DNA of 64,000 bases from Micrococcaceae bacterium (GTDB lineage: Bacteria > Actinomycetota > Actinomycetes > Actinomycetales > Micrococcaceae), in NCBI GenBank assembly GCA_025465475.1, contig JAODMR010000005.1, positions 1 to 64,000 of the forward strand. The letters run 5' to 3'. A program made the translations under genes and the position numbers. This document shows positions 5,870-61,403 of this stretch, piece after piece (within the stretch, counting starts at the first letter, position 1; every line of letters begins with the position of its first letter). Under the pieces are notes generated by a model. That model saw only the letters and a list, made by a program, of their open reading frames with translations. It searched no databases and was not told where the DNA came from.

Positions 5870-6057
5870 GTCCAACCCTGCTTGGCGCCGCCATCGGTGC
5901 CTTTCTGGCCTTCATGGCCTTCGCTTTTGGTTTCTGGGGGTTCGTCGTGGCTGCCCTGTTCATGGTCGTAGGCGCAGCCTTGGGACGCGCCGCAGAAGGC
6001 CGGCTGGACGTGCGCAGTGCGTGGGATGCGCTCACGGGCCGGCGTTCATCGTCATGA
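5866..6057 (+). CDS. small DUF2273-type membrane protein of the Asp23 operon
   Basis: 63 residues with two closely spaced hydrophobic segments (LLGAAIGAFLAFMAFAFGFW and GFVVAALFMVVGAALGRAA) and a basic tail ending TGRRSSS. This matches the small DUF2273-like protein that accompanies Asp23/Gls24 genes in Gram-positive bacteria. The ATG overlaps the asp23 stop by four bases (ATGA) and its own stop overlaps the next start in the same way, indicating strict translational coupling. Function is unknown; it is presumably a membrane partner of Asp23. Confidence 0.8.
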   Translation: MSPTLLGAAIGAFLAFMAFAFGFWGFVVAALFMVVGAALGRAAEGRLDVRSAWDALTGRRSSS

Positions 6058-24397: not shown

Positions 24398-26812
24398 TCA
24401 GGCGAAGTACTTGGGCAGCACTTCCTCGTTGACCTTCCGGACCTCATCCAGCGGCAGCGTGAACAGGCCCTGCACCTCCAGCGATCCGGAGTCCGCATCC
24501 ACGACGCCGATGCGGGCGGTGGGGAACGAGCGGGCGGAACACATATCGGTGAAACGGATCTCCTCGGAACGCGGGACCGACACGATGGCCCTGCCCTGCG
24601 ATTCGGAAAACAGCAGCGTGAACGGGTCCACCCCGTCACGGTCGCAGACCTCACTCAATGCCACCCGGGCACCTGTGTTGTACCGAAGGGACGACTCCAC
24701 CAGGGCAGCAGCCAGGCCACCCTCGGAGAGGTCATGGGCAGCGTCAACCATGCCGTCACGGGAGGCGTTGATGAGGATCTCCGCCAGCTGGCGTTCCCGG
24801 TCCAGGTCCGCCTTGGGCGGCAGGCCACCCAGATGTCCCTGCAGGTTGGCCCATTCCGACCCATCCAGCTCATCCGCCGTCGTACCGAGCAGGTAGACGG
24901 CCTGGCCGTCCTCACGCCACCCGGACGGGGTGCGGCGCGCGACGTCGTCGAAGACGCCGAGCACGCCGACCACGGGGGTTGGGTGGATGGCGACGCCGCC
25001 GGTCTGGTTGTACAGCGACACGTTGCCACCGGTGACCGGGACGCCCAGTTCCTGGCAGGCGTCCGAGAGGCCGCGCACCGACTCGGCGAACTGCCACATG
25101 ACGTCGGGATCCTCCGGGGAGCCAAAGTTCAGGCAGTCGGTGACGGCGAGGGGGCGCGCACCGGAGGTGGCGACGTTCCGGTAGGACTCCGCCAGGGCCA
25201 GGCGCGCGCCCTCGTAGGGGCTCAGGTAGGAGTAGCGGCCGTTGGCATCGGTTGACAGCGCGACACCCAGACCCGACCCTTCATCCACGCGGATCACGCC
25301 GGCATCATCAGGCATGGCAAGGGCTGTGTTGCCCTGCACGTACCGGTCGTACTGATCGGTGACCCACTTCTTCGACGCCATGTTCGGGGCAGCCATCAAC
25401 TGCAGGACGGCGTCCCGCAGTTCGTTACCCGAGGCGGGGCGGCCGCCGGTGAACGAGTCAGCCTGGACGCCGTCGAGCCACTCCGGCCGGGCGTAGGGGC
25501 GCTCGTACACGGGGCCCTCATGCGCGACGGTGCGGGGGTCGACGTCGACGATGGTCTCGCCATCCCAGTCGATGATCAGCCGGCCCGTGTCGGTGACTTC
25601 ACCCAGCCAGGAGTACTCCACGGCCCACTTGTCCATAATGGCTTCGAACGCTGCCATGTTTTCCGGCGTGACGACTGCCATCATGCGTTCCTGCGACTCC
25701 GACATCAGGATTTCACCCGGTGTCAGGGTGGGGTCGCGCAGCAGGACCTTGGTCAGCTCGACGTGCATGCCGCCGTCACCGTTGGAGGCCAGTTCGCTGG
25801 TGGCGCAGGAGATGCCCGCGGCCCCCAGGTCCTGGATGCCTTCCACCACTGCTGCCTTGAACAGCTCCAGGCAGCACTCGATGAGCACCTTTTCGGCGAA
25901 CGGGTCGCCGACCTGGACAGCCGGCCGCTTGGAGGGCTTGGTGGCGTCGAAGGATTCGGAGGCCAGCACGGAGGCTCCGCCGATGCCGTCACCACCGGTG
26001 CGCGCCCCGAACAGGACCACCTTGTTGCCGGCGCCGGACGCATTGGCCAGGCGGATGTCCTCGTGCCGGAGCACGCCGACGGCCAGCGCGTTCACTAGGG
26101 GGTTGCCCTGGTAGACGGAGTCGAAGACGACCTCGCCACCGATGTTGGGCAGGCCCAGGGAGTTACCGTAGCCGCCGATGCCGGAGACGATGCCGTGCAC
26201 CAGCCGGGCGGTGTCCGGGTGGTCGATGGCGCCGAACCGCAGTGGATCCATCACGGCGACCGGGCGGGCGCCCATGGAGATGATGTCGCGGACGATGCCG
26301 CCAACGCCGGTCGCCGCGCCCTGGTAAGGCTCAACGAAGGAGGGGTGGTTGTGCGACTCGACCTTGAAGGTCACCGCCCAGCCCTCGCCGATGTCGACGA
26401 CGCCGGCGTTCTCGCCGATGCCGACCAGGAGGTGTTCCTTCATTTCGTCCGTGACCTTGTCGCCGAACTGGCGCAGGTGCACCTTGGAGGACTTGTAGGA
26501 GCAGTGTTCGCTCCACATCACGGAGTACATGGCCAGTTCCGCCGCTGTGGGGCGGCGGCCCAGGATTTCCACGACGCGTTGGTACTCGGTGTCCTTCAGG
26601 CCCAGTTCGGCCCAGGGCAGGTCCGTGTCCGGCGTTTTTTCGGCGTTGTCCACCGTGTCGATGTTGAACTTCCGGTCCACGGGTGCCGTCGCCGGGGCGA
26701 TCTCCACCGTCTCGGGTCCGGTGTTCGAAACGTCCCCGCTGTTCGAGCCCGCCCCGGTGGTCGAGCCTGTCGAGACCCCTTCGGTGGTCGAGCCTGTCGA
26801 GACCTCGCTCAT
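24398..26812 (-). CDS. purL: phosphoribosylformylglycinamidine synthase subunit PurL
   Basis: 804 residues. It overlaps the purQ stop by ATGA, which fixes the start. The catalytic region begins at about residue 50 ([19 protein letters not shown]) and includes [31 protein letters not shown], the ATP-binding and auxiliary sites of the small-type PurL, and the C-terminal AIRS-like domain. It needs PurS and PurQ, encoded just upstream, to make FGAM from FGAR and glutamine. The odd part is the N-terminus. Residues 3-20 ([18 protein letters not shown]) are encoded by two copies of a 22-base palindromic repeat that is intergenic elsewhere in this window. Confidence 0.96.
26756..26804. repeat. two dispersed-repeat units inside the purL 5' coding region
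   Basis: Copies at 26756-26777 and 26783-26804, each containing GGTCGAGCCTGTCGAGACC preceded by GGT, with period 27 bases. The period is a multiple of three, so the reading frame stays open and gives [18 protein letters not shown]. The same unit occurs in the array at 53958-54097. A degenerate third copy may lie near 26719-26740. Confidence 0.85.
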
Positions 26813-27591
26813 TTGGTGCCTCCCACGAGCTTGTTCAGGACGGACGTGAAGAAGCCAAGGCCGTCGGTACTGGTGGAGCTGTTTTCGAAGGATCCCGGGC
26901 CATAACCGGTTTCCACGGCGTGCTCGGGGTGCGGCATGAGCCCGACGACGTTGCCCGCCTCGTTGGCGATGCCGGCGATATCACGGCGTGAGCCGTTGGG
27001 GTTGAAGCCGACGTAGCGGAAGACCACGCGGCCCTCTGCCTCGAGCGCATCAAGGGTTTTGTCGTCAGCCAGGTACTGGCCGTCCTGGTTCTTCAGCGGA
27101 ACGGTGATTTCCTGGTTCGCGTCGAAGTCCGTGGTCCAGGCCGTGGTGTTGTTCTCGACCCGCAGGACCTGATCCCGACAAATGAACTTCAGGTGGTCGT
27201 TCTTGAGCATCGACCCCGGAAGCAGGTGGGATTCGGTCAGCATCTGGAAACCGTTGCAGATACCCAGGACGGGCAGCTTCGCATTGGAATTGGCGGCGTC
27301 GATGATGCGGGACATGAGCGGCGCGAAGCGGGCAATCGCGCCCGCGCGCAGGTAGTCGCCGTAGGAGAACCCGCCAGGCAGGATGACGGCGTCGACGTCG
27401 CTCAGCACGTCGGAGCTGGTGTCGGCGTGCCACAACTGGACGGGCGTGCCGCCTGCCATGCGCACGGCCCGGGCAGCGTCCCGGTCATCGAGCGTGCCGG
27501 GGAAGGTGACGACGCCGATGCGAGCGCCGGCCAGGGCGGCGTTGCTGCCTGCCTCGGGGGCAGGAGCTCCGATCAAGGGAGTTTCAGTCAT
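26809..27591 (-). CDS. purQ: phosphoribosylformylglycinamidine synthase subunit PurQ
   Basis: 260 residues of class I glutamine amidotransferase. The nucleophile Cys is in [12 protein letters not shown] and the catalytic His/Glu in [28 protein letters not shown] opens the domain. It supplies ammonia to PurL. An N-terminal extension of about 20 residues ([20 protein letters not shown]) precedes the family core, so a later start such as the codon before ARIGVVTF is possible. PurS ends two bases upstream and purL overlaps by ATGA; the three genes form one operon. Confidence 0.95.
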
Positions 27592-27593
27592 GA

Positions 27594-27845
27594 CTAGTCC
27601 GCCACAACCTCAACGTTGACGACATCCTCGATCACGGGGTTGGAAAGCAGTGTGGCGGCAGCTTCGCGGGCCTGCGCCAGCAGCTCCTCCGTGACCTCCC
27701 CGTCGGTGAACAGCTCAAAGCGCTTGCCTTGCCTGACGGAACTGAAGCCGGTAAAGCCGAGCCGCGGCAACGCCCCGACAATCGCCTTTCCCTGCGGGTC
27801 AAGAATCTCGGGTTTGGGCATGACATCGACAACGATCCGGGGCAT
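27594..27845 (-). CDS. purS: phosphoribosylformylglycinamidine synthase subunit PurS
   Basis: 83 residues. [20 protein letters not shown] and [13 protein letters not shown] are hallmarks of PurS, which bridges PurL and PurQ and channels ammonia. First gene of the purSQL operon; about 120 bases upstream separate it from the SSI-like lipoprotein gene and should hold the promoter. Confidence 0.95.
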
Positions 27846-27965
27846 CCGGGAACTCCTGATGTTAAATGAGTGGCCGCGGAAGGTGCCGTCTCACGCTGTT
27901 GTGGTCAGCGCTCCGCGAGCTTGCCATCCCAGTCTACCGAGTGGGGCAGTAAGTTACCGAACCGG

Positions 27966-28658
27966 CTAATTGGTGCCGGCCGGGCCGCCGAGCAGCGTGG
28001 GGATGCTGTTCCACGCAGCAATCCGGCAGCCGTCGGTAAGGCTGAAGGAGGCGTCGATGGTGTGACCGTGGAACGTGCCGGTCACGGTTGCCTGCTGCGG
28101 GCCACCGTACTGCTGGGTGCACTGCTCGGGCATCGGGCGTTGACTGGCCAGCACCTCCTCGCCATGCGCCTCCAGCTCGCCGCAGGCGGTGGCCGCGTTC
28201 GGCAGGGTGGACGTGGGGCTGACGGCCGCACCGTCGCAGAGCAGGGTGTAGGTCACCGGCGTGGCTGTCGGGGTGGCCAGCAAGGTGATGGTCAGGGAGC
28301 TGGTCGTGGCAGTTGCGTTGCCGGGAGTCCCTGACGGCGGGATCAAAGGGGAGGGGGAGGGCGTCGCGGGTCCGAGCGGTTCGGCCGGCGCGGTCAGGCC
28401 GGGCGCCGACGTGGGTGCGGCCGATGCGGGCGCGCCCGGGGAGACGGCGGACGTGGGCTCACTGGGGGAGACGGCCGACGTCGGACCGGAGGTTGCAGCC
28501 GGCCCACCGGCGGAACTTCCGGGGGCGGACGCCGACCCGCCGGCGGTGCACCCGGCGAGGGCGAGCAGCAGTGCCGCCCCGGCAGCCGCCGTCACTGCGT
28601 TTATGCCAAGCCTGCGTGGGCTGCGCGCCCCCGTGTTCGCTCGCGTCCAGGGTCCCAT
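27966..28658 (-). CDS. lipoprotein with subtilisin-inhibitor-like (SSI) domain
   Basis: 230 residues. The lipobox is LLLALAGC (Cys37), so the protein should be lipid-anchored on the outer face. A Ser/Ala/Pro/Thr-rich linker (about 40-115) follows, then a compact C-terminal domain with the SSI pattern: TYTLLCDG, AATACGEL, PEQCTQQYGGPQQATVTGTF and DGCRIAAWN, i.e. four cysteines in the SSI order plus the conserved YGGPQ-ATVTG strand. Streptomyces SSI proteins are secreted inhibitors of subtilisin-like proteases, with the reactive site between the second and third Cys (here near RPMP-EQC). A lipid-anchored version is unusual. The inhibitory function is inferred, not shown. Confidence 0.8.
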   Translation of the reverse strand: MGPWTRANTGARSPRRLGINAVTAAAGAALLLALAGCTAGGSASAPGSSAGGPAATSGPTSAVSPSEPTSAVSPGAPASAAPTSAPGLTAPAEPLGPATPSPSPLIPPSGTPGNATATTSSLTITLLATPTATPVTYTLLCDGAAVSPTSTLPNAATACGELEAHGEEVLASQRPMPEQCTQQYGGPQQATVTGTFHGHTIDASFSLTDGCRIAAWNSIPTLLGGPAGTN

Positions 28659-28668
28659 GACCGCCAGC

Positions 28669-29610
28669 CTAGTGGGTTGCGGGGTCTACGGGGACCGGCG
28701 CCGATAACGATTGGATGGCGGCCAGGAGGCGCTCCCGCAATTGTGCCGACTCCGCGCTGAAAGCCCGCTGCAAGGCGACGTAGTTCGCTTTTCCGGTTGC
28801 CGTCTCGATGGGGATCGGCGGATAGCCCCAGTCGGCAAGGTCATAGGGCGAGGCCTGCATGTCCATGGCCCGGATCCGCCAGGACAGTTCGAAGCAGGCC
28901 ATTACCAGTTCGCTGGGCAGTGTTGGCGAGAGCTTGTACGCCCACTTGTAGAGGTCCATATTGGCGTGCAGGCAGCCGGGCTGTTCCAGGTCCCGCTGAT
29001 TGTCGCGGGTGGGGGTCAGCTCGTTAAGCGGTACCGCTTTCGGCGTGTAGAACCGGAACGCATCAAAGTGGGTGCACCGGATCCTGTTTTTCGCGACAAC
29101 GGCGTCAGTTCCTTTCGTGCCAAGGCGCAGCTGCAGATATTCGTGCCGGACGTCGTCGGGACCTTGTCCGTAAACCATCGCCCACTCGTGCAGGCCGAAA
29201 CAGCCGAACTGTGCGGTCCGGTCAGTGGTACGGGACAGCAAAAGCTCTGTGAAGCCCACCGTCTCCCGGCGCTCGCGGAGGAACCTGTCGGTGTCCACGA
29301 CGACGGCCGATTCATTGGGGCGTATAGCCAGGGTTTCCCGTTCGCTCGCACTGAGCGGGCGATAATACTTCCACTGCTGCCGCTCGGCCGCCTGCTGGCC
29401 GGTCAGTACGACGCCAGTGCCTGGATGCCACCGGCGGAGCTGGCCGGGCTTGTGGTTGTAGTAGGTAAACAGGAAGTCTTCCACCGGGTGCTTGTGGCCG
29501 GAGGAGCGGCGCAGCAGATATGGGTCGGCGTATCCGGCAACAAGTTCTTCATGCGCCGCCTGCCGGGCGAGCCCTTCGGCTGGTGGAAGAAGCTGCAAAG
29601 TGGGGCTCAC
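28669..29610 (-). CDS. conserved protein often named 3-methyladenine DNA glycosylase
   Basis: Start placed at the GTG at 29610 (VSPTLQLLPPAEG), which overlaps the MarR stop as GTGA; an upstream start would overlap MarR heavily. 313 residues. HKHPVEDFLFTYYNHKPGQL and LRRWHPGTGVVLTG are conserved in this actinobacterial family, and QFGCFGLHEWAMVYG is another conserved block. Databases commonly name it 3-methyladenine DNA glycosylase, but the classical AlkA/Tag motifs (helix-hairpin-helix, catalytic Asp) are not visible, so that name is weakly founded. Coupling to MarR is the only context. Confidence 0.6.
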   Translation of the reverse strand: MSPTLQLLPPAEGLARQAAHEELVAGYADPYLLRRSSGHKHPVEDFLFTYYNHKPGQLRRWHPGTGVVLTGQQAAERQQWKYYRPLSASERETLAIRPNESAVVVDTDRFLRERRETVGFTELLLSRTTDRTAQFGCFGLHEWAMVYGQGPDDVRHEYLQLRLGTKGTDAVVAKNRIRCTHFDAFRFYTPKAVPLNELTPTRDNQRDLEQPGCLHANMDLYKWAYKLSPTLPSELVMACFELSWRIRAMDMQASPYDLADWGYPPIPIETATGKANYVALQRAFSAESAQLRERLLAAIQSLSAPVPVDPATH

Positions 29611-30170
29611 GCCGTATCCAGGCTGGCATTGGCGGCGTTCGGAGCGCTGATGTCGGATGGCGACCATTCCGGTGGGGAAGACGCGGGCCCTGTGGTGAAC
29701 GCGTCAGGGACGCCGGCGTCGTTGCTCGCGCTTTGTGCCGCCACGATGAGCTTGGTCATGGTGGTATGCAGCTGGGCTGCCTCGGCCCGGCTCAGGCCCA
29801 GGCGCGACAACATGGCGCCGGGAACGGAGAGGGCCTTGCGGCGAAGTTCCGCACCTTTGCGGGTCAGGGAGATGACCAGCACACGTTCATCAGCGGTGTC
29901 CCGTGCGCGGGTGATGAGCCCGGAAGCCTCCAGGCGCTTCAGGAGCGGGGACAGCGTCGCGGGTTCCAGCAGGAGGGAACTGCTGATGTCCTTGACGGAG
30001 CGCGGGCTGCGTTCCCACAACGCGAGCATCACCAGGTACTGCGGGTGGGTCAGTTCCAACGCACCCAGGACAGGCTTGTAGGCGGTGATGACGCTGCGCG
30101 AGGCAACACTCAGGGCAAAGCACAGCTGCCGTTCCAGCGTCAGGTCATTCTCGGAACCACTCACGGCCAC
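29607..30170 (-). CDS. MarR-family transcriptional regulator
   Basis: 187 residues. The winged helix lies at about 50-120: LELTHPQYLVMLALWERSP, SVKDISSSLLLEPATLSPLL, KRLEASGLITRARD and ERVLVISLTRKGAEL, close to OhrR/MarR. The only Cys is in the first helix (RQLCFALSVASRSV), the position of the peroxide-sensing Cys of OhrR, so organic-peroxide sensing is possible; no ohr gene is adjacent. The C-terminal 35 residues are Ala/Ser-rich and unconserved. It overlaps the downstream gene and is divergent from the small gene at 30249. Confidence 0.85.
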   Translation of the reverse strand: MAVSGSENDLTLERQLCFALSVASRSVITAYKPVLGALELTHPQYLVMLALWERSPRSVKDISSSLLLEPATLSPLLKRLEASGLITRARDTADERVLVISLTRKGAELRRKALSVPGAMLSRLGLSRAEAAQLHTTMTKLIVAAQSASNDAGVPDAFTTGPASSPPEWSPSDISAPNAANASLDTA

Positions 30171-30248
30171 CTTCTTACTGCGTTAGTTAGTGCACTAATC
30201 ATTAGGGTACTATTGAACTGTCCCTCCAGCCAGCGAACCAGGAATGCC

Positions 30249-30476
30249 ATGCCGGAAAAGAGCTTTGTCGAGAGGTTCATGAACGCCACCGACAGGTTGC
30301 GGGCGATTTTTGGACCTGCCAACCGCACCTCCATCGATCACGAAATGACCGAGGAAAACAAGCAACTACTCGCCCGGCAGCAGGCAGCGGAAGCCCAGCA
30401 GTGGGAGACCATCCACCGCCCGGACGGAAGTACCTATGTGGTGCCGAAGGATCCCGGAGACAAGTCCCTCCGCTGA
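30249..30476 (+). CDS. small conserved protein, paralogue 1
   Basis: 75 residues (MPEKSFVERFMNATDRLRAI, then FGPANRTSIDHEMTEENKQLL). No signal peptide; helical and charged, ending in a short beta-type segment (HRPDGSTYVVPKDPGDK). The block RFMNATDRLRAIFGPANR matches HFMHATEHLQGVFGPADR in the gene 105 bases downstream, so the two are tandem paralogues. A promoter-like AT-rich stretch shared with the divergent MarR gene (30180-30215) raises the possibility of MarR control. I do not recognise a named family. Confidence 0.7.
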   Translation: MPEKSFVERFMNATDRLRAIFGPANRTSIDHEMTEENKQLLARQQAAEAQQWETIHRPDGSTYVVPKDPGDKSLR

Positions 30477-30581
30477 GCGGGCATGCCCGCTGAAGGCTCG
30501 GCTGGCAGGTCCTTTCCATCAACAAAGGCGTAAAATGTGGCTGTTGGCACACCTTCCGTCTGTGGAAAGGAGGTGTTGGCA

Positions 30582-30803
30582 ATGGCACGGGAGCATCACC
30601 GCCTGGAACACTTCATGCACGCCACGGAACATCTGCAGGGAGTCTTTGGTCCCGCCGATCGTGGAGCGATCGATGGGCCGGTGGTCCACCGTCACGACGA
30701 GTTTGAGCAGGCGTCGGACGAGGATCTTGCACAGTTTGAGGTCGAGACCGACTCGACTGGGCACCACTACGGTGTTCGGAAACCGCACACCACCAATTCC
30801 TGA
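30582..30803 (+). CDS. small conserved protein, paralogue 2
   Basis: 73 residues from the ATG at 30582. The Shine-Dalgarno GAAAGGAGGTG lies upstream and is close to ideal, implying efficient translation. MAREHHRLEHFMHATEHLQG, then VFGPADRGAIDGPVV, parallels the gene just upstream; the acidic C-terminal half (HDEFEQASDEDLAQFEVE) differs. Cytosolic, function unknown. It ends at a strong bidirectional terminator. Confidence 0.72.
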   Translation: MAREHHRLEHFMHATEHLQGVFGPADRGAIDGPVVHRHDEFEQASDEDLAQFEVETDSTGHHYGVRKPHTTNS

Positions 30804-30810
30804 CACCTCA

Positions 30811-30856
30811 AAGACAGCAGCTGCCCGGGATGGCCGTCCCGGGCAGCTGCTGTCTT
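30811..30856. terminator. 20-bp bidirectional terminator between paralogue 2 and lysC
   Basis: Perfect 20-base arms (30811-30830 and 30837-30856) beginning AAGACAGCAGC, with a 6-base loop TGGCCG. The arm ends supply A and T tracts on both strands. It lies between two convergent genes. Confidence 0.85.
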
Positions 30857-30859
30857 TCC

Positions 30860-32146
<1,287 letters not shown>

Positions 32147-57299: not shown

Positions 57300-60200
57300 C
57301 TAGCTTGCCGGGTTGCATCCTCCATGGGCACCCTCATAAGTGTCCAGGCGGTGGACGAACGCCGCCATCGCTTCACGGCTGATCGCTTCCACCGGGTGGA
57401 AGCTGTTGTCCGGGAAGCCGGTGGTGATGCCGCTGTCCTTGGCCCAGGCGATTTCACGGAAGAACTGGTCGTTCGTGGGAACGTCCGTGAACTGCTGGGT
57501 GGTCGGAGCGGTGTAGTCGGCAGCGTCGGCGATGCGGCAGAACTGGCCCGAGAACCGGTTCATGAAAGCCGCCATGGCGTCACGGTTGACCGGAGCGGTC
57601 GGGCGGTAGCTGCCGTCCGGGTAACCGTTGGCCAGGCCGATGGACTGCATCCACGTGATTTCCTTGTAGTACATGGTGTTCGCGTCAATGTCACTGAACG
57701 GTGACGTTGCCGGTGCCGAGAAGGAGGGCGAGCCCGCCAGTCGGTACAGGAACGCGGCCATCGCGTCACGCTGCACGGGTGCCAACGGGCGGTAGGTGCC
57801 GTCCGGGTAACCCGTGGTCAGGCCGTGGTCGGCCATCCAGTTGATGTCCGACTCGAACATGGTGCCGGGAACATCGCTGAACCGCAGCTGGCCAACCTCG
57901 GTCGGCACAACCTCGGCGCGGTCTCCCGAGGCGTTGTGCAGGTGCAGGAACAATGCCTGGGCATTGGTTTCCGTTGCCGAGCGGTGCACGGCCAGCTGCG
58001 TCGAGGGGGAATCCACGAACAATGCTGCCGGCTGGGCACCTTCAAACCACAGGTCCGGAGAGGCGACGTCGAAGGGAATCGCCGCCGTCTCGTCCACCGG
58101 CACGGACTTGCCGTTGGCGTCCATGCTCCAGGAACTGGCCGTGGTCACCTTGTAGCTGATCCGGGCAGGCTTGCTCACGTCCAGTCCAAGGGCGGACACT
58201 GCCACCGGAAGCGACACCGTGTTGGTGTCAAAGGTGTTGGTGTCCACGTCACCGAGCTGGCCGTTGGCAAACTGCTGATCCACGCTGTCGCCAAGGCTGC
58301 CGTCAGCGTTGACCTTGTCGGTGAAGACCACGATGCCGTCGTAACCCTCGACCACAGCCGTGTAGGTGGCGAAATCGGCCTTACCGTCACCGGTGGTGTC
58401 GATCTCGACCCTGATGCCGCTGGAGGTCAGCAGCGCCGGCCAGTCGCCCCAGGTGCTGATTCCGAAGTTCAGCACGCCGTTGGCTGCGGCCTCTGCGGCA
58501 TCCCCGCCAGCCGCCCGGATCGCCGGCACTGTTGACGAGGCGCCAACGTACTGCAGATCCATGGAACGGTTGGTGATGGTCGCTACCGGGCTGTCCGGCT
58601 TGCGGTCGCTGCTGGCGCCCAGCACGAACGGTGCCACAGCCGACAGGTACTGCTGGGCATTTTCGCCCTGCTTCACGCCGCGTCCGCTAAGGCCCAGCAG
58701 GGCTGCGTCCTTGGCCGGGGCGAAGGTGATCTTGGGCCCCGCGGTCATGTCAGACACCGGCTTCGGTGCTGCGTAGACCGGTACCCGGAGGGTCGGCGAC
58801 GAAGCCGAGGTCAACTGGACCCGGCCCGAAGCATCCGCCAGGAATGACCGCTTGATGCCCAGCTGGTCGGCAGACATGGTCGGATCAAGTGACTTGGCCA
58901 GCTTGGTCGGGTCGTCGATGCTCAGGGTCACGGTGAACTGGGCAGCAGCCGAGTTCGCCGGGATCTCCAGGGTGGCAGGGGAAAGGCTGTAGTTCACGCC
59001 GGGCATTTCCGTTGCCGCCAGGTAGCTGGCCTTGTAGGAGACTGGGCTATTGCTGCGGTTCTGCACGGTGATGGTCTTGCTCACCTTCACCGGCTGATCG
59101 CCGACTTCCAGGACGCCGAAGTTGACGCTGGTGAGGACCGGATCTTCAGTCGCAAAAGCCAGCACTTGGTCATTGACCGCGTCCAGCGCATTCACGCGGC
59201 CCGCACCAACCCGGTTGGGACCGTAGGCCTTACCGTCGGCCAACACGTCAACGTTGGCGGTGTTCATGATGGTGGTCTTGACCTGGTAAGGGGTCATTCC
59301 ACCGGAGGCGTACAGCAGGGCGGCGATGCCGGCGACGTGCGGCGTCGACATCGACGTGCCGCTCTTGGTCGACGCGCCGGTACCGGAACCAACGGCAACG
59401 GAGCCAATGTTGGAACCGGGTGCTGCCACATCGGGCTTGACGATGCCGTTGGACCCGTGCACTCCGCGTGAGGAGAACGAGGCCAGGGTGTCCTTGGCTC
59501 CGGTCGGTACCGACGAGGACGCGCGATAGGTCGGGTTCAGCTGGAGCTGCAGCGTCCCGGCCTTGGCGGCAGGCGTCAGGGCGTCGGTGGCTGCCTTGTT
59601 GAGCTGAACGCCGGGGATGGTGGCGTTGCCTGCGATGCCCGCTTCGAACAGCGTGCGCTGCGAATTCAGGACCACGCCCGTTGCGCCGGCTGCTTCGGCA
59701 TTGTTGAACCGGGCAGCTGATCCACAGGGCCGGGTTTCGTCGTTGTCGTCCCACTGGAGCATGACCCATTTGCCCTTGAAGGACGCGGCCTGCTCCGGCG
59801 TGAAGGCAGTGCACCCGGTGTTGTTGGCATCCGGAGCGAACTGCACGGTTCCTGTCAGGGTGGCCTGCGTGACTCCCGCGGCTGTGTAGTCGAAGGAGGA
59901 GGAGTACTGACCGCTGACCTGGCCCTTCTTGTCGGCCGGAGCCAGGACATCTACGCGGTCCAGCGCTGCCTGGGAACCGACAGATGCGGCGACGGTCAGG
60001 GCGGACCGGGCGTTGCCCGGCGACCCGCCGATGTCGTACACGTCACCGGCGTTTCCTGAAGCGACGACGGAGAGAACGCCGAGTGCGGTCAGGGCATCCA
60101 CGATGTCATTGTCCGGGTCGTCGGTGGGAACGTAGTCCCCGCCCAGGGACATGTTGACCACATTGGCGCGGTCGGAGAAGTCGCCGTCCATGTTCGGGTC

Positions 60201-61235
60201 CAGGACTTGGTCAAGGGCCAGGCCGACGACGTCGGAGGAGCCTTCGCAGCCGAAGACCCGCAGCGATACGAGCTTGGCTTCCGGCGCTGAACCGGGACCG
60301 ATGCGCATGGCGTTGACCTGGTCGGCCGTGAGGGTGGTGTAGTCGCCATCGAAGGTGCTGCCGTCAGCGTTGGTGCCGTAGCCGGCCGCTGTGCCCGCGA
60401 CGTGGCTGCCGTGTCCCTCGCAGTCGAGTGGATTGGCATCGGGGTGAGGAGTTGGCTGGTACGTGGCAGGGTCCGAGGGATCCGCGTTGTAGTCATCACC
60501 CACCAGGTCCCAGCCGCCGATGAACTTTGACGGGTCGTAGAGCCCCGAATCCGGCCCGGGAAGCGTGGCGCTCGCCTTGGCAGCAGCGAACGCCTCAGCG
60601 GTCCCCGGTCCACCAAAGTCGGAGTGCGTGTAGTCCAGGCCGGTGTCGATAACGGCGATGGTTGCGCCCGCACCGGTCTGGTGGTTCTGGGTCCAGGCCT
60701 GCAGCGCCTGGGTGTCGATGTCGGTGCCCTTGTTTTCGTACGTCTTCGATACGATCGGGGTGATCTTCACGACGTCGCTGCGGTTGGCCAGGCTCCGGAC
60801 CTTGGCGGCATCACCAATGATGGCGACACCGGGAAGGGCGTTGGTGGTGGTGTAGATCTTGGTGGCTGCGGCTTCGCTGGTGACGGAGTCAGCCGTGGAC
60901 TCGATACCCTTGCGGATGTCCTGCACCTTGGCCGTGTCCTTCAGCGGAGTTGCGGCGCCATCCTTGACCGCCTGCGGCTGCGTTGCCGCGAAGGCGCCTT
61001 GTCCACTGAACTGCACGTAAACGGAAATTGGACCCGAGGCGTTGCCAAGGGTCCCACCCAACTTTTGTGCCGGGGTAAGTTTTGCTGCCGCTTTTTGGCT
61101 GGTGATGCCGGCGGCGAAGTTGCTTGCTGACGGGTTGTCCGCGGCAACGGCCGCGTTGCCCGCCGTTGCCGCTATCGCGAGCCCTGTCAGTGTTGCCAGA
61201 ATCTTTGTTCTGCCCCTAGGGGGATGCTTACTCAT
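57300..61235 (-). CDS. secreted S8 subtilisin-like protease with three SLH domains
   Basis: Start at the ATG at 61235 (MSKHPPRGRTKILATL), since GAGGAG lies just before it; an ATG four codons upstream is possible. 1311 residues. Signal peptide (ILATLTGLAIAATAG to AAVAADN), an I9-type propeptide, then a catalytic domain with Asp197 (VIDTGLDYTHSDFGG), His275 (EGHGSHVAGTAAG) and Ser628 (SGTSMSTPHVAGIAALL). A PA-type insert (TGVVLNSQRTLFEAGIAGN) lies between His and Ser. Fn3-like beta-rich regions follow, then three SLH repeats at the C-terminus (GLTTGYPDGTYRPLAPV, GLANGYPDGSYRPTAPV and GITTGFPDNSFHPVEAI). It should be a wall-associated protease; the SLH modules may bind secondary wall polymers. 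Confidence 0.93.
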   Translation of the reverse strand: MSKHPPRGRTKILATLTGLAIAATAGNAAVAADNPSASNFAAGITSQKAAAKLTPAQKLGGTLGNASGPISVYVQFSGQGAFAATQPQAVKDGAATPLKDTAKVQDIRKGIESTADSVTSEAAATKIYTTTNALPGVAIIGDAAKVRSLANRSDVVKITPIVSKTYENKGTDIDTQALQAWTQNHQTGAGATIAVIDTGLDYTHSDFGGPGTAEAFAAAKASATLPGPDSGLYDPSKFIGGWDLVGDDYNADPSDPATYQPTPHPDANPLDCEGHGSHVAGTAAGYGTNADGSTFDGDYTTLTADQVNAMRIGPGSAPEAKLVSLRVFGCEGSSDVVGLALDQVLDPNMDGDFSDRANVVNMSLGGDYVPTDDPDNDIVDALTALGVLSVVASGNAGDVYDIGGSPGNARSALTVAASVGSQAALDRVDVLAPADKKGQVSGQYSSSFDYTAAGVTQATLTGTVQFAPDANNTGCTAFTPEQAASFKGKWVMLQWDDNDETRPCGSAARFNNAEAAGATGVVLNSQRTLFEAGIAGNATIPGVQLNKAATDALTPAAKAGTLQLQLNPTYRASSSVPTGAKDTLASFSSRGVHGSNGIVKPDVAAPGSNIGSVAVGSGTGASTKSGTSMSTPHVAGIAALLYASGGMTPYQVKTTIMNTANVDVLADGKAYGPNRVGAGRVNALDAVNDQVLAFATEDPVLTSVNFGVLEVGDQPVKVSKTITVQNRSNSPVSYKASYLAATEMPGVNYSLSPATLEIPANSAAAQFTVTLSIDDPTKLAKSLDPTMSADQLGIKRSFLADASGRVQLTSASSPTLRVPVYAAPKPVSDMTAGPKITFAPAKDAALLGLSGRGVKQGENAQQYLSAVAPFVLGASSDRKPDSPVATITNRSMDLQYVGASSTVPAIRAAGGDAAEAAANGVLNFGISTWGDWPALLTSSGIRVEIDTTGDGKADFATYTAVVEGYDGIVVFTDKVNADGSLGDSVDQQFANGQLGDVDTNTFDTNTVSLPVAVSALGLDVSKPARISYKVTTASSWSMDANGKSVPVDETAAIPFDVASPDLWFEGAQPAALFVDSPSTQLAVHRSATETNAQALFLHLHNASGDRAEVVPTEVGQLRFSDVPGTMFESDINWMADHGLTTGYPDGTYRPLAPVQRDAMAAFLYRLAGSPSFSAPATSPFSDIDANTMYYKEITWMQSIGLANGYPDGSYRPTAPVNRDAMAAFMNRFSGQFCRIADAADYTAPTTQQFTDVPTNDQFFREIAWAKDSGITTGFPDNSFHPVEAISREAMAAFVHRLDTYEGAHGGCNPAS

Positions 61236-61403
61236 CGAACTCCTCATAAGAGGTAGGCGCCCGCCAATGCCCCTGAGCGCCTACAGATGTGCGTGTAATG
61301 CAGAAAGGGGAATCAGCCGGAACTGAGGAGCAGCCCCGAAGAGCAGCAGCTGCCGAGCGCACCACCCCAAGCGCTCCCTTCTTACCCTAGGTGGCGCAAC
61401 CCG

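Follow-up and report, generated by a model that had tools for sequence, protein, structure and literature searches.

The genome of a soil-type actinobacterium encodes a predicted lipid-anchored relative of the Streptomyces subtilisin inhibitor (SSI) at positions 27966 to 28658 of the 64,000-nucleotide stretch analysed here, hereafter the window. Because SSI genes in relatives lie beside genes for large secreted subtilases or co-occur with them, the protein probably protects the cell against the proteases it makes itself. We assign a probability of about 0.6 to a surface-tethered, self-protective inhibitor of the cell's own secreted subtilases, an inhibitory activity that we infer. The computed support comprises a lipobox, a linker, the SSI sequence, the predicted fold, a conserved loop with a non-basic P1 residue, and the association with subtilase genes. 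The lipoprotein would be exported, lipidated and held outside the membrane on a flexible linker, where its SSI domain would present Gln182-Gln183 to a subtilase in the manner of a substrate; a subtilase blocked near the membrane would leave the envelope protected. The most likely target in this genome would be the SLH-type subtilase encoded at 57300-61247. The gene and its features are:

27966..28658, minus strand: gene of the SSI-type lipoprotein, 230 amino acids, ATG at 28658 to stop at 27966 (PF00720)
28548..28559, minus strand: lipobox LAGC, residues 34-37, with Cys37 as the predicted lipidation site
28302..28547, minus strand: linker of 82 residues (38-119), rich in Ala, Pro, Ser, Thr and Gly by composition
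27984..28295, minus strand: SSI domain, residues 122-225 (profile A1 match, E 3.4e-39, the window sequence being itself a row of A1)
28098..28121, minus strand: predicted reactive-site loop C180-T-Q-Q-Y-G-G-P187, by alignment to SSI
28110-28115, minus strand: predicted P1-P1' bond Q182-Q183, by alignment to SSI

Protein layout and SSI family membership

The open reading frame (minus strand, 230 residues) lies at the coordinates given in an earlier note on this DNA, and the lipid-anchored, SSI-type character proposed there is borne out by the lipobox, the Pfam match, sequence and fold matches in the PDB, and the joint loss of two cysteines described below. The N-terminus has a basic n-region with RR, then a hydrophobic segment (peak 2.18 as a 15-residue Kyte-Doolittle mean, starting at residue 21), then the lipobox LAGC. 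A hydrophobic stretch before LAGC is the arrangement that marks a bacterial lipoprotein, a signal peptide with a lipobox, and the protein is presumably lipidated and located at the surface. The long linker that had also been claimed is present: its 82 residues comprise 18 Ala, 18 Pro, 15 Ser, 11 Thr, 11 Gly and nine others. Among relatives at the named loci described below, 63 of 77 four-Cys copies carry a lipobox after a hydrophobic stretch under a strict pattern, and 14 do not. The window genome holds one SSI copy in the A1 profile search.

Judged by sequence and predicted fold, the window protein is a member of the SSI family (MEROPS I16). The Pfam model PF00720 (SSI) scores it at 25.2 bits (E 1.6e-5), above its cut-off of 23.9, and at 27.1 bits in the genome scan. 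Searched alone against the PDB with phmmer, the protein finds SSI chains at E 0.0016; profile A1, built from the window protein and 28 relatives, finds chains of SSI, sermetstatin and SSTI at E 4e-7 to 8e-6. An AlphaFold2 model of the domain (140 rows, mean pLDDT 68.4) has the element order strand, strand, helix, strand, strand, helix. Its pLDDT falls below 50 at domain residues 55-62 (leading into the loop), 94-96 and 102-112, and averages 56 over residues 61-70, which hold the reactive loop. The comparison of a predicted structure with SSI that had been proposed came out in favour of the family, as the first 13 PDB rows in Foldseek are all SSI-family entries (best 2sic_I, E 3.7e-4). In VIA-align, the model superposes on 6i0i_B with Z 8.8 and an rmsd of 3.8 over 98 aligned residues; the eight SSI-family entries listed have Z 7.5-8.8 and the other rows at most 4.7. 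Rows for Mago nashi and MHC-like folds, with Z under 5, were set aside as chance similarity. A leaderless relative (L103:5962-6342) gave a model with mean pLDDT 88.3, for which the first 14 Foldseek rows are SSI-family and VIA Z values are 7.6-8.4 for that family and at most 3.8 for others. With rmsd values of about 4-6 angstrom, loop geometry lies beyond the judgement of these fold comparisons.

The match exceeds chance: profile A1 finds related domains in 165 of the 295 genomes of the family (E 1e-8), and the PF00720 model in 91. Across the phylum, 28 of 396 genomes match A1 (E 1e-3). Eleven of these belong to a single, seemingly Streptomyces-like genus (f5/g39), each with one strong and at least one weaker copy. 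In nine strong copies the loop reads YGGP, while YGGD and HGGR occur once each; the weaker copy read at locus L101 has CTRQYDP. Plasmid records searched by tblastn gave matches in 2 of 72,556, one of them from Arthrobacter and with no genes tabulated for the stretch in question, and a search of genome contigs with the window protein as single query gave no confirmed match. One record titled Vibrio cholerae strain 35D (L142) carries an Arthrobacter-type gene order with an SSI lipoprotein; that assembly is probably mislabelled or contaminated. At six Streptomyces-like loci (L203-L208), the YGG-type SSI gene abuts, on the same strand, a gene of 1.1-1.5 thousand residues. The L203 gene encodes PAS domains, along with a response-regulator match that stays below cut-off; the remaining five genes are homologous to it.

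Cysteines and the predicted reactive-site loop

The cysteines of the domain (141, 159, 180 and 211) follow the SSI order claimed earlier, and in sequence alignments all four align with the SSI cysteines (35, 50, 71 and 101); the spacing is 18/21/31 in the window protein and 15/21/30 in SSI. Of 250 non-redundant domain rows, 243 keep or lose Cys1 and Cys2 as a pair: the full set of four is found in 159 of these, Cys3 and Cys4 alone in 83, and no cysteine in 1. The remaining rows lack Cys1 in the aligned part (four) or Cys2 (three). Such joint loss fits a Cys1-Cys2 bond as far as alignments can indicate one, and the disulfides of the window protein (Cys141-Cys159 and Cys180-Cys211) are likewise predicted.

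In the loop, C-T-Q-Q-Y aligns with C-P-M-V-Y of SSI, one residue is inserted before the Pro, and model confidence there is low. The reactive bond would thus be Gln182-Gln183. The earlier note had looked for the loop near RPMPEQC; it does follow directly after that motif, with the bond outside it, two residues past its Cys. Among 144 four-Cys rows of the family, P1 is Q in 98, M in 21, E in 19, D in 2, L in 2, A in 1 and T in 1, so that Q, M or E accounts for 138 and K or R for none. In the 84 two- or three-Cys rows, P1 is Q in 83 and E in 1. Elsewhere in the phylum, 1 of 21 rows has a basic P1 (L101), of the canonical SSI type. The window protein is like SSI (PDB 3ssi, 2sic) in its PF00720 domain, four-Cys order, predicted fold, the predicted position of the reactive bond two residues after Cys3, and the Tyr at the predicted P2'. 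It differs from known SSI in its predicted lipid anchor, long linker, loop length (YGGP for YDP) and Gln at P1, and in a conserved GC.I..W end.

Some of these features count against reading the protein as an inhibitor, namely the Gln at P1 and the residue inserted after P2', both unlike SSI, and a loop unusually uniform for a reactive site. The reactive sites of many inhibitors are variable. An almost invariant loop (Y-G-G-P from P2' to Pro in 84 of 84 two- or three-Cys family rows) with a one-residue insertion could instead mean that the SSI fold was kept and inhibition lost, YGGPQ then serving as a binding or structural element, perhaps as part of a sensor or chaperone. The abutting large gene at 6 of 6 Streptomyces-like loci, PAS-containing in the one scanned, would suit such a role. 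We hold this to be very unlikely, given the adjacency and co-occurrence with subtilases set out below, and because P2, P1 and P1' are not fixed among the four-Cys lipoproteins.

An alternative that keeps inhibition directs it at another class of the cell's own proteases, trypsin-family or metalloprotease, as with sermetstatin and snapalysin. Sermetstatin (4hwx, 4hx2, 4hx3) and SSTI (6i0i) are close structural matches with the same fold and similar scores, and differ in acting on metalloproteases as well, their PDB titles naming metalloprotease binding or inhibition. Both are Streptomyces proteins, secreted and soluble. In the window genome, PF00089 (trypsin family) gives 9 match rows spread over about 7 places, which also counts against subtilases as the target. 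Weighing the other way, K or R is absent from P1 in all 144 four-Cys family rows, the genomic association was found with S8, the protease family surveyed across genomes, and a scan for M7 snapalysin (PF02031) gave no match in the genome, but none in the controls either. This alternative seems to us quite unlikely, and inhibition of the cell's own subtilases remains the preferred reading.

Gene neighbourhood and association with subtilases

The SSI gene and the candidate partner have the following surroundings in the window:

28669..29667, minus strand: upstream neighbour, here called glyc, without a Pfam or NCBIfam match
29607..30170, minus strand: MarR-family regulator, in similar order in relatives
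27594..27845, minus strand: purS, downstream neighbour
26809-27591: purQ, after purS
24398-26812: purL, after purQ
57300..61247, minus strand, from the first ATG: S8 subtilase with a PA domain and three SLH domains, candidate partner

Some 10 bases separate the start of the SSI gene from the stop of glyc, which in relatives is annotated as 3-methyladenine DNA glycosylase. From strand and spacing, the MarR-family regulator probably heads the same operon. When 27500-30900 was scanned for promoters and terminators, no candidate exceeded the chance level. We assign the names purS, purQ and purL from sequence resemblance; gene order around the pur genes is similar in relatives, and glyc is a neighbour of SSI in numerous Micrococcaceae loci, whether or not a subtilase is present. 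For comparison, we used 79 named loci, the top-ranking ones among 267 confirmed matches to A2, a closer alignment set than the diverse A1, and hence selected for resemblance to the window; almost all are from Arthrobacter, Pseudarthrobacter or Paenarthrobacter. The arrangement seen most often is lysC, MarR, four-Cys lipoprotein, glyc, two-Cys SSI, purS, purQ, purL. It is complete from lysC to purL in 34 of the 79 and partial in the others, in some because the locus ends. The window-like order of glyc, four-Cys SSI and purS occurs in 14 of the 79, with MarR recognised in 1 of those 14. The window gene thus takes the place that the two-Cys gene has in many relatives. In a quick tree built from few columns, it falls within a 26-row group that includes an 18-row group of two- or three-Cys copies; support for this placement is modest (SH-aLRT 91).

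The subtilase that adjoins SSI in relatives has the domains I9, S8, PA and fn3_6 (at L103), and a match to it is present in 73 of the 79 named loci. Of the six without a match, four are cut off no more than 2.4 kb from the last SSI domain; in L108 and L141 it is absent from the 12 kb examined. A profile of this subtilase (A3) matches 104 of 295 family genomes at E 1e-100. The line for the I9-S8-PA-fn3 family was drawn at 1400 bits after a gap between 1437 and 1307 had been seen, and 82 genomes lie above it. All 82 have SSI, against 83 of the 213 others (Fisher p 1e-26, with kinship not taken into account). SSI is present in 4 and missing from 18 of the 22 genomes whose A3 match falls under the line. 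Of the 82 genomes, 71 come with SSI positions; in 68 of these, spanning 8 genera, the distance to the I9-S8-PA-fn3 subtilase is at most 5 kb, and in the other three SSI is 15 kb away (one) or on another contig (two). The subtilase is found on either side of SSI in relatives. At two loci of genus g25, the pair stands outside the glyc and pur context, adjacent at L221 and with one ORF between at L220. A frozen lysC-glyc-pur neighbourhood as the sole cause of the adjacency is made less likely by L220 and L221, at which none of the lysC, glyc or pur genes was recognised, and by the subtilase occurring on either side.

The window's own subtilase belongs elsewhere. The earlier note gave it as 57300-61235 and saw in it a conceivable partner: the gene is present, on the minus strand and extending to 61247 with the first ATG. 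The partner idea gains support in modified form: this family of subtilases does co-occur with SSI, but the gene lies 29 kb from the SSI gene, neither adjacent nor in one operon, and the subtilase adjacent to SSI in relatives is of another family. The window subtilase was accordingly rejected as the usual SSI neighbour, the two subtilases being 27% identical over 552 residues. A PF00082 scan of the window genome found two S8 genes, the SLH subtilase and a 456-residue protein without evident signal; the N-terminus of the SLH subtilase is signal-like by eye, the only such one of the two. The 456-residue gene (L181, contig C167 of the same genome) lies near PF00089 matches on that contig. No I9-S8-PA-fn3 subtilase was found in the window genome by the PF00082 scan, by comparison of its two matches with the L103 subtilase, or by the A3 scan, which at E 1e-100 was negative for the other four genomes of the genus too. 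A search of the genus with the L103 subtilase as query was also empty, but as it passed over even the 27% identical window subtilase, it was given no weight here.

At E 1e-60, 128 of the 295 family genomes have a relative of the window subtilase, or 125 once three matches through the SLH part only are dropped (G032, G149, G226). The co-occurrence survey suggested earlier gave a positive answer: among genomes without an I9-S8-PA-fn3 subtilase, the window type is present in 77 of 83 with SSI and in 42 of 130 without (p 6e-20, kinship ignored). In the window's own genus, SSI and the window-type subtilase are both present in 4 of 5 genomes and both absent from the fifth at the thresholds used. Counted by genus, a subtilase of either kind is present in 19 of the 20 genera with SSI and in 7 of the 12 without (p 0.018). 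The 42 genomes with the window type and no SSI (17 in g3, 8 in g6, 5 in g21, 4 in g12, 3 each in g16 and g11, 1 each in g30 and g23) imply that SSI is not needed wherever this subtilase exists. Whole genera that have the window-type subtilase and lack SSI, together with the 6 of 165 SSI genomes that have no scored subtilase of any kind, would also be expected if the inhibitor were aimed at foreign proteases of competitors, predators or hosts, with the subtilase link marking only lineages that live on protein; classic SSI proteins do inhibit broadly. We consider a foreign target unlikely, as a subtilase close by in 68 of 71 genomes and the surface tethering fit self-protection better.

Leaderless paralogues and known inhibitors

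Many relatives carry, besides the four-Cys gene, a leaderless and mostly two-Cys paralogue with nearly the same loop. The 79 named loci contain 64 copies with two or three cysteines, 62 of which show no hydrophobic stretch followed by a lipobox. Between the end of glyc and the domain there are 2 to 74 bases in the 61 copies where this is measurable, a gap that could hardly accommodate a signal peptide unless the two reading frames overlap; at L103, the glyc stop at 5965 overlaps the SSI start at 5962. The copy at L103:5962-6342 and the 63 others (L102-L180) usually lie directly behind glyc, and their loop CTQQYGGPQ is almost invariant. The two copies that do have a lipobox after such a stretch (L111, L180) and the g25 copies at L220 and L221 are two-Cys lipoproteins. 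Two leaderless copies that were scanned fall below the Pfam cut-off, so annotation may miss this paralogue. One leaderless copy (L222:7341-7667) lacks all four cysteines and the CTQQYGG loop, and is still behind glyc and beside a subtilase. Two genomes of the window's own genus carry, at a different locus, a four-Cys lipoprotein gene with a leaderless copy immediately after it (L184, and L183, which is identical in sequence to L141 of Arthrobacter sp. H14-L1); no S8 gene was recognised in the 12.5 kb covered. The A1 profile found no leaderless copy in the window genome.

By analogy with staphostatin B, a leaderless copy with the same loop suggests, as a conjecture, a guard inside the cell in relatives. 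Staphostatin B and IPI of B. subtilis resemble the leaderless paralogue in being bacterial inhibitors without a signal peptide that act on a protease of their own cell. They differ in that their folds, that of the staphostatins included, are unrelated to SSI, and the window gene product would itself be exported. Staphostatin B is described in an excerpt of PMC4490255 as a cytoplasmic inhibitor encoded beside its own secreted protease. For IPI, an excerpt of PMC3901451 gives an Ig-like fold, questions its intracellular nature, and states that intracellular peptidase inhibitors are rare and IPI genes lie outside subtilisin operons. PF00720 proteins outside the secreted Streptomyces type appear in an excerpt of PMC5238444 on the fungus Choanephora cucurbitarum, where 3 of 11 SSI-like proteins are predicted not to be extracellular, the cytosol being given for one; for bacterial SSI-like proteins, the prediction is extracellular in 6 of 8. 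An SSI-like protein inside the cell has thus already been proposed in another setting, one that is fungal, with locations predicted only and no membrane anchor described in that excerpt. S. coelicolor has two SSI-like genes, the second being SCO4010, according to an excerpt of PMC5853079. YGG-type copies beside canonical ones may be orthologues of SCO4010. A lipobox pattern occurs in only one Streptomyces-like YGG-type tree row (L078). Among titles and beginnings of abstracts of open papers, we found no lipid-anchored or leaderless bacterial SSI protein.

A tentative and rather doubtful extension is that Micrococcaceae draw two-compartment self-protection from one fold. A lipid-anchored four-Cys SSI would act outside, and a leaderless, mostly two-Cys SSI encoded right behind glyc would act in the cytoplasm against secreted subtilase that folds early. 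The window genome would then have only the anchored half, in the leaderless slot, with an SLH-anchored subtilase replacing the adjacent I9-S8-PA-fn3 one.

SSI is a textbook inhibitor whose role for its producer is unsettled. We describe here a broad SSI-type group that is membrane-tied or, as paralogues, without a recognisable export signal, and that tracks particular subtilases of its own genomes. The named protease-inhibitor pairs make a role in self-protection directly testable, and one inhibitor fold is apparently used on both sides of the membrane.
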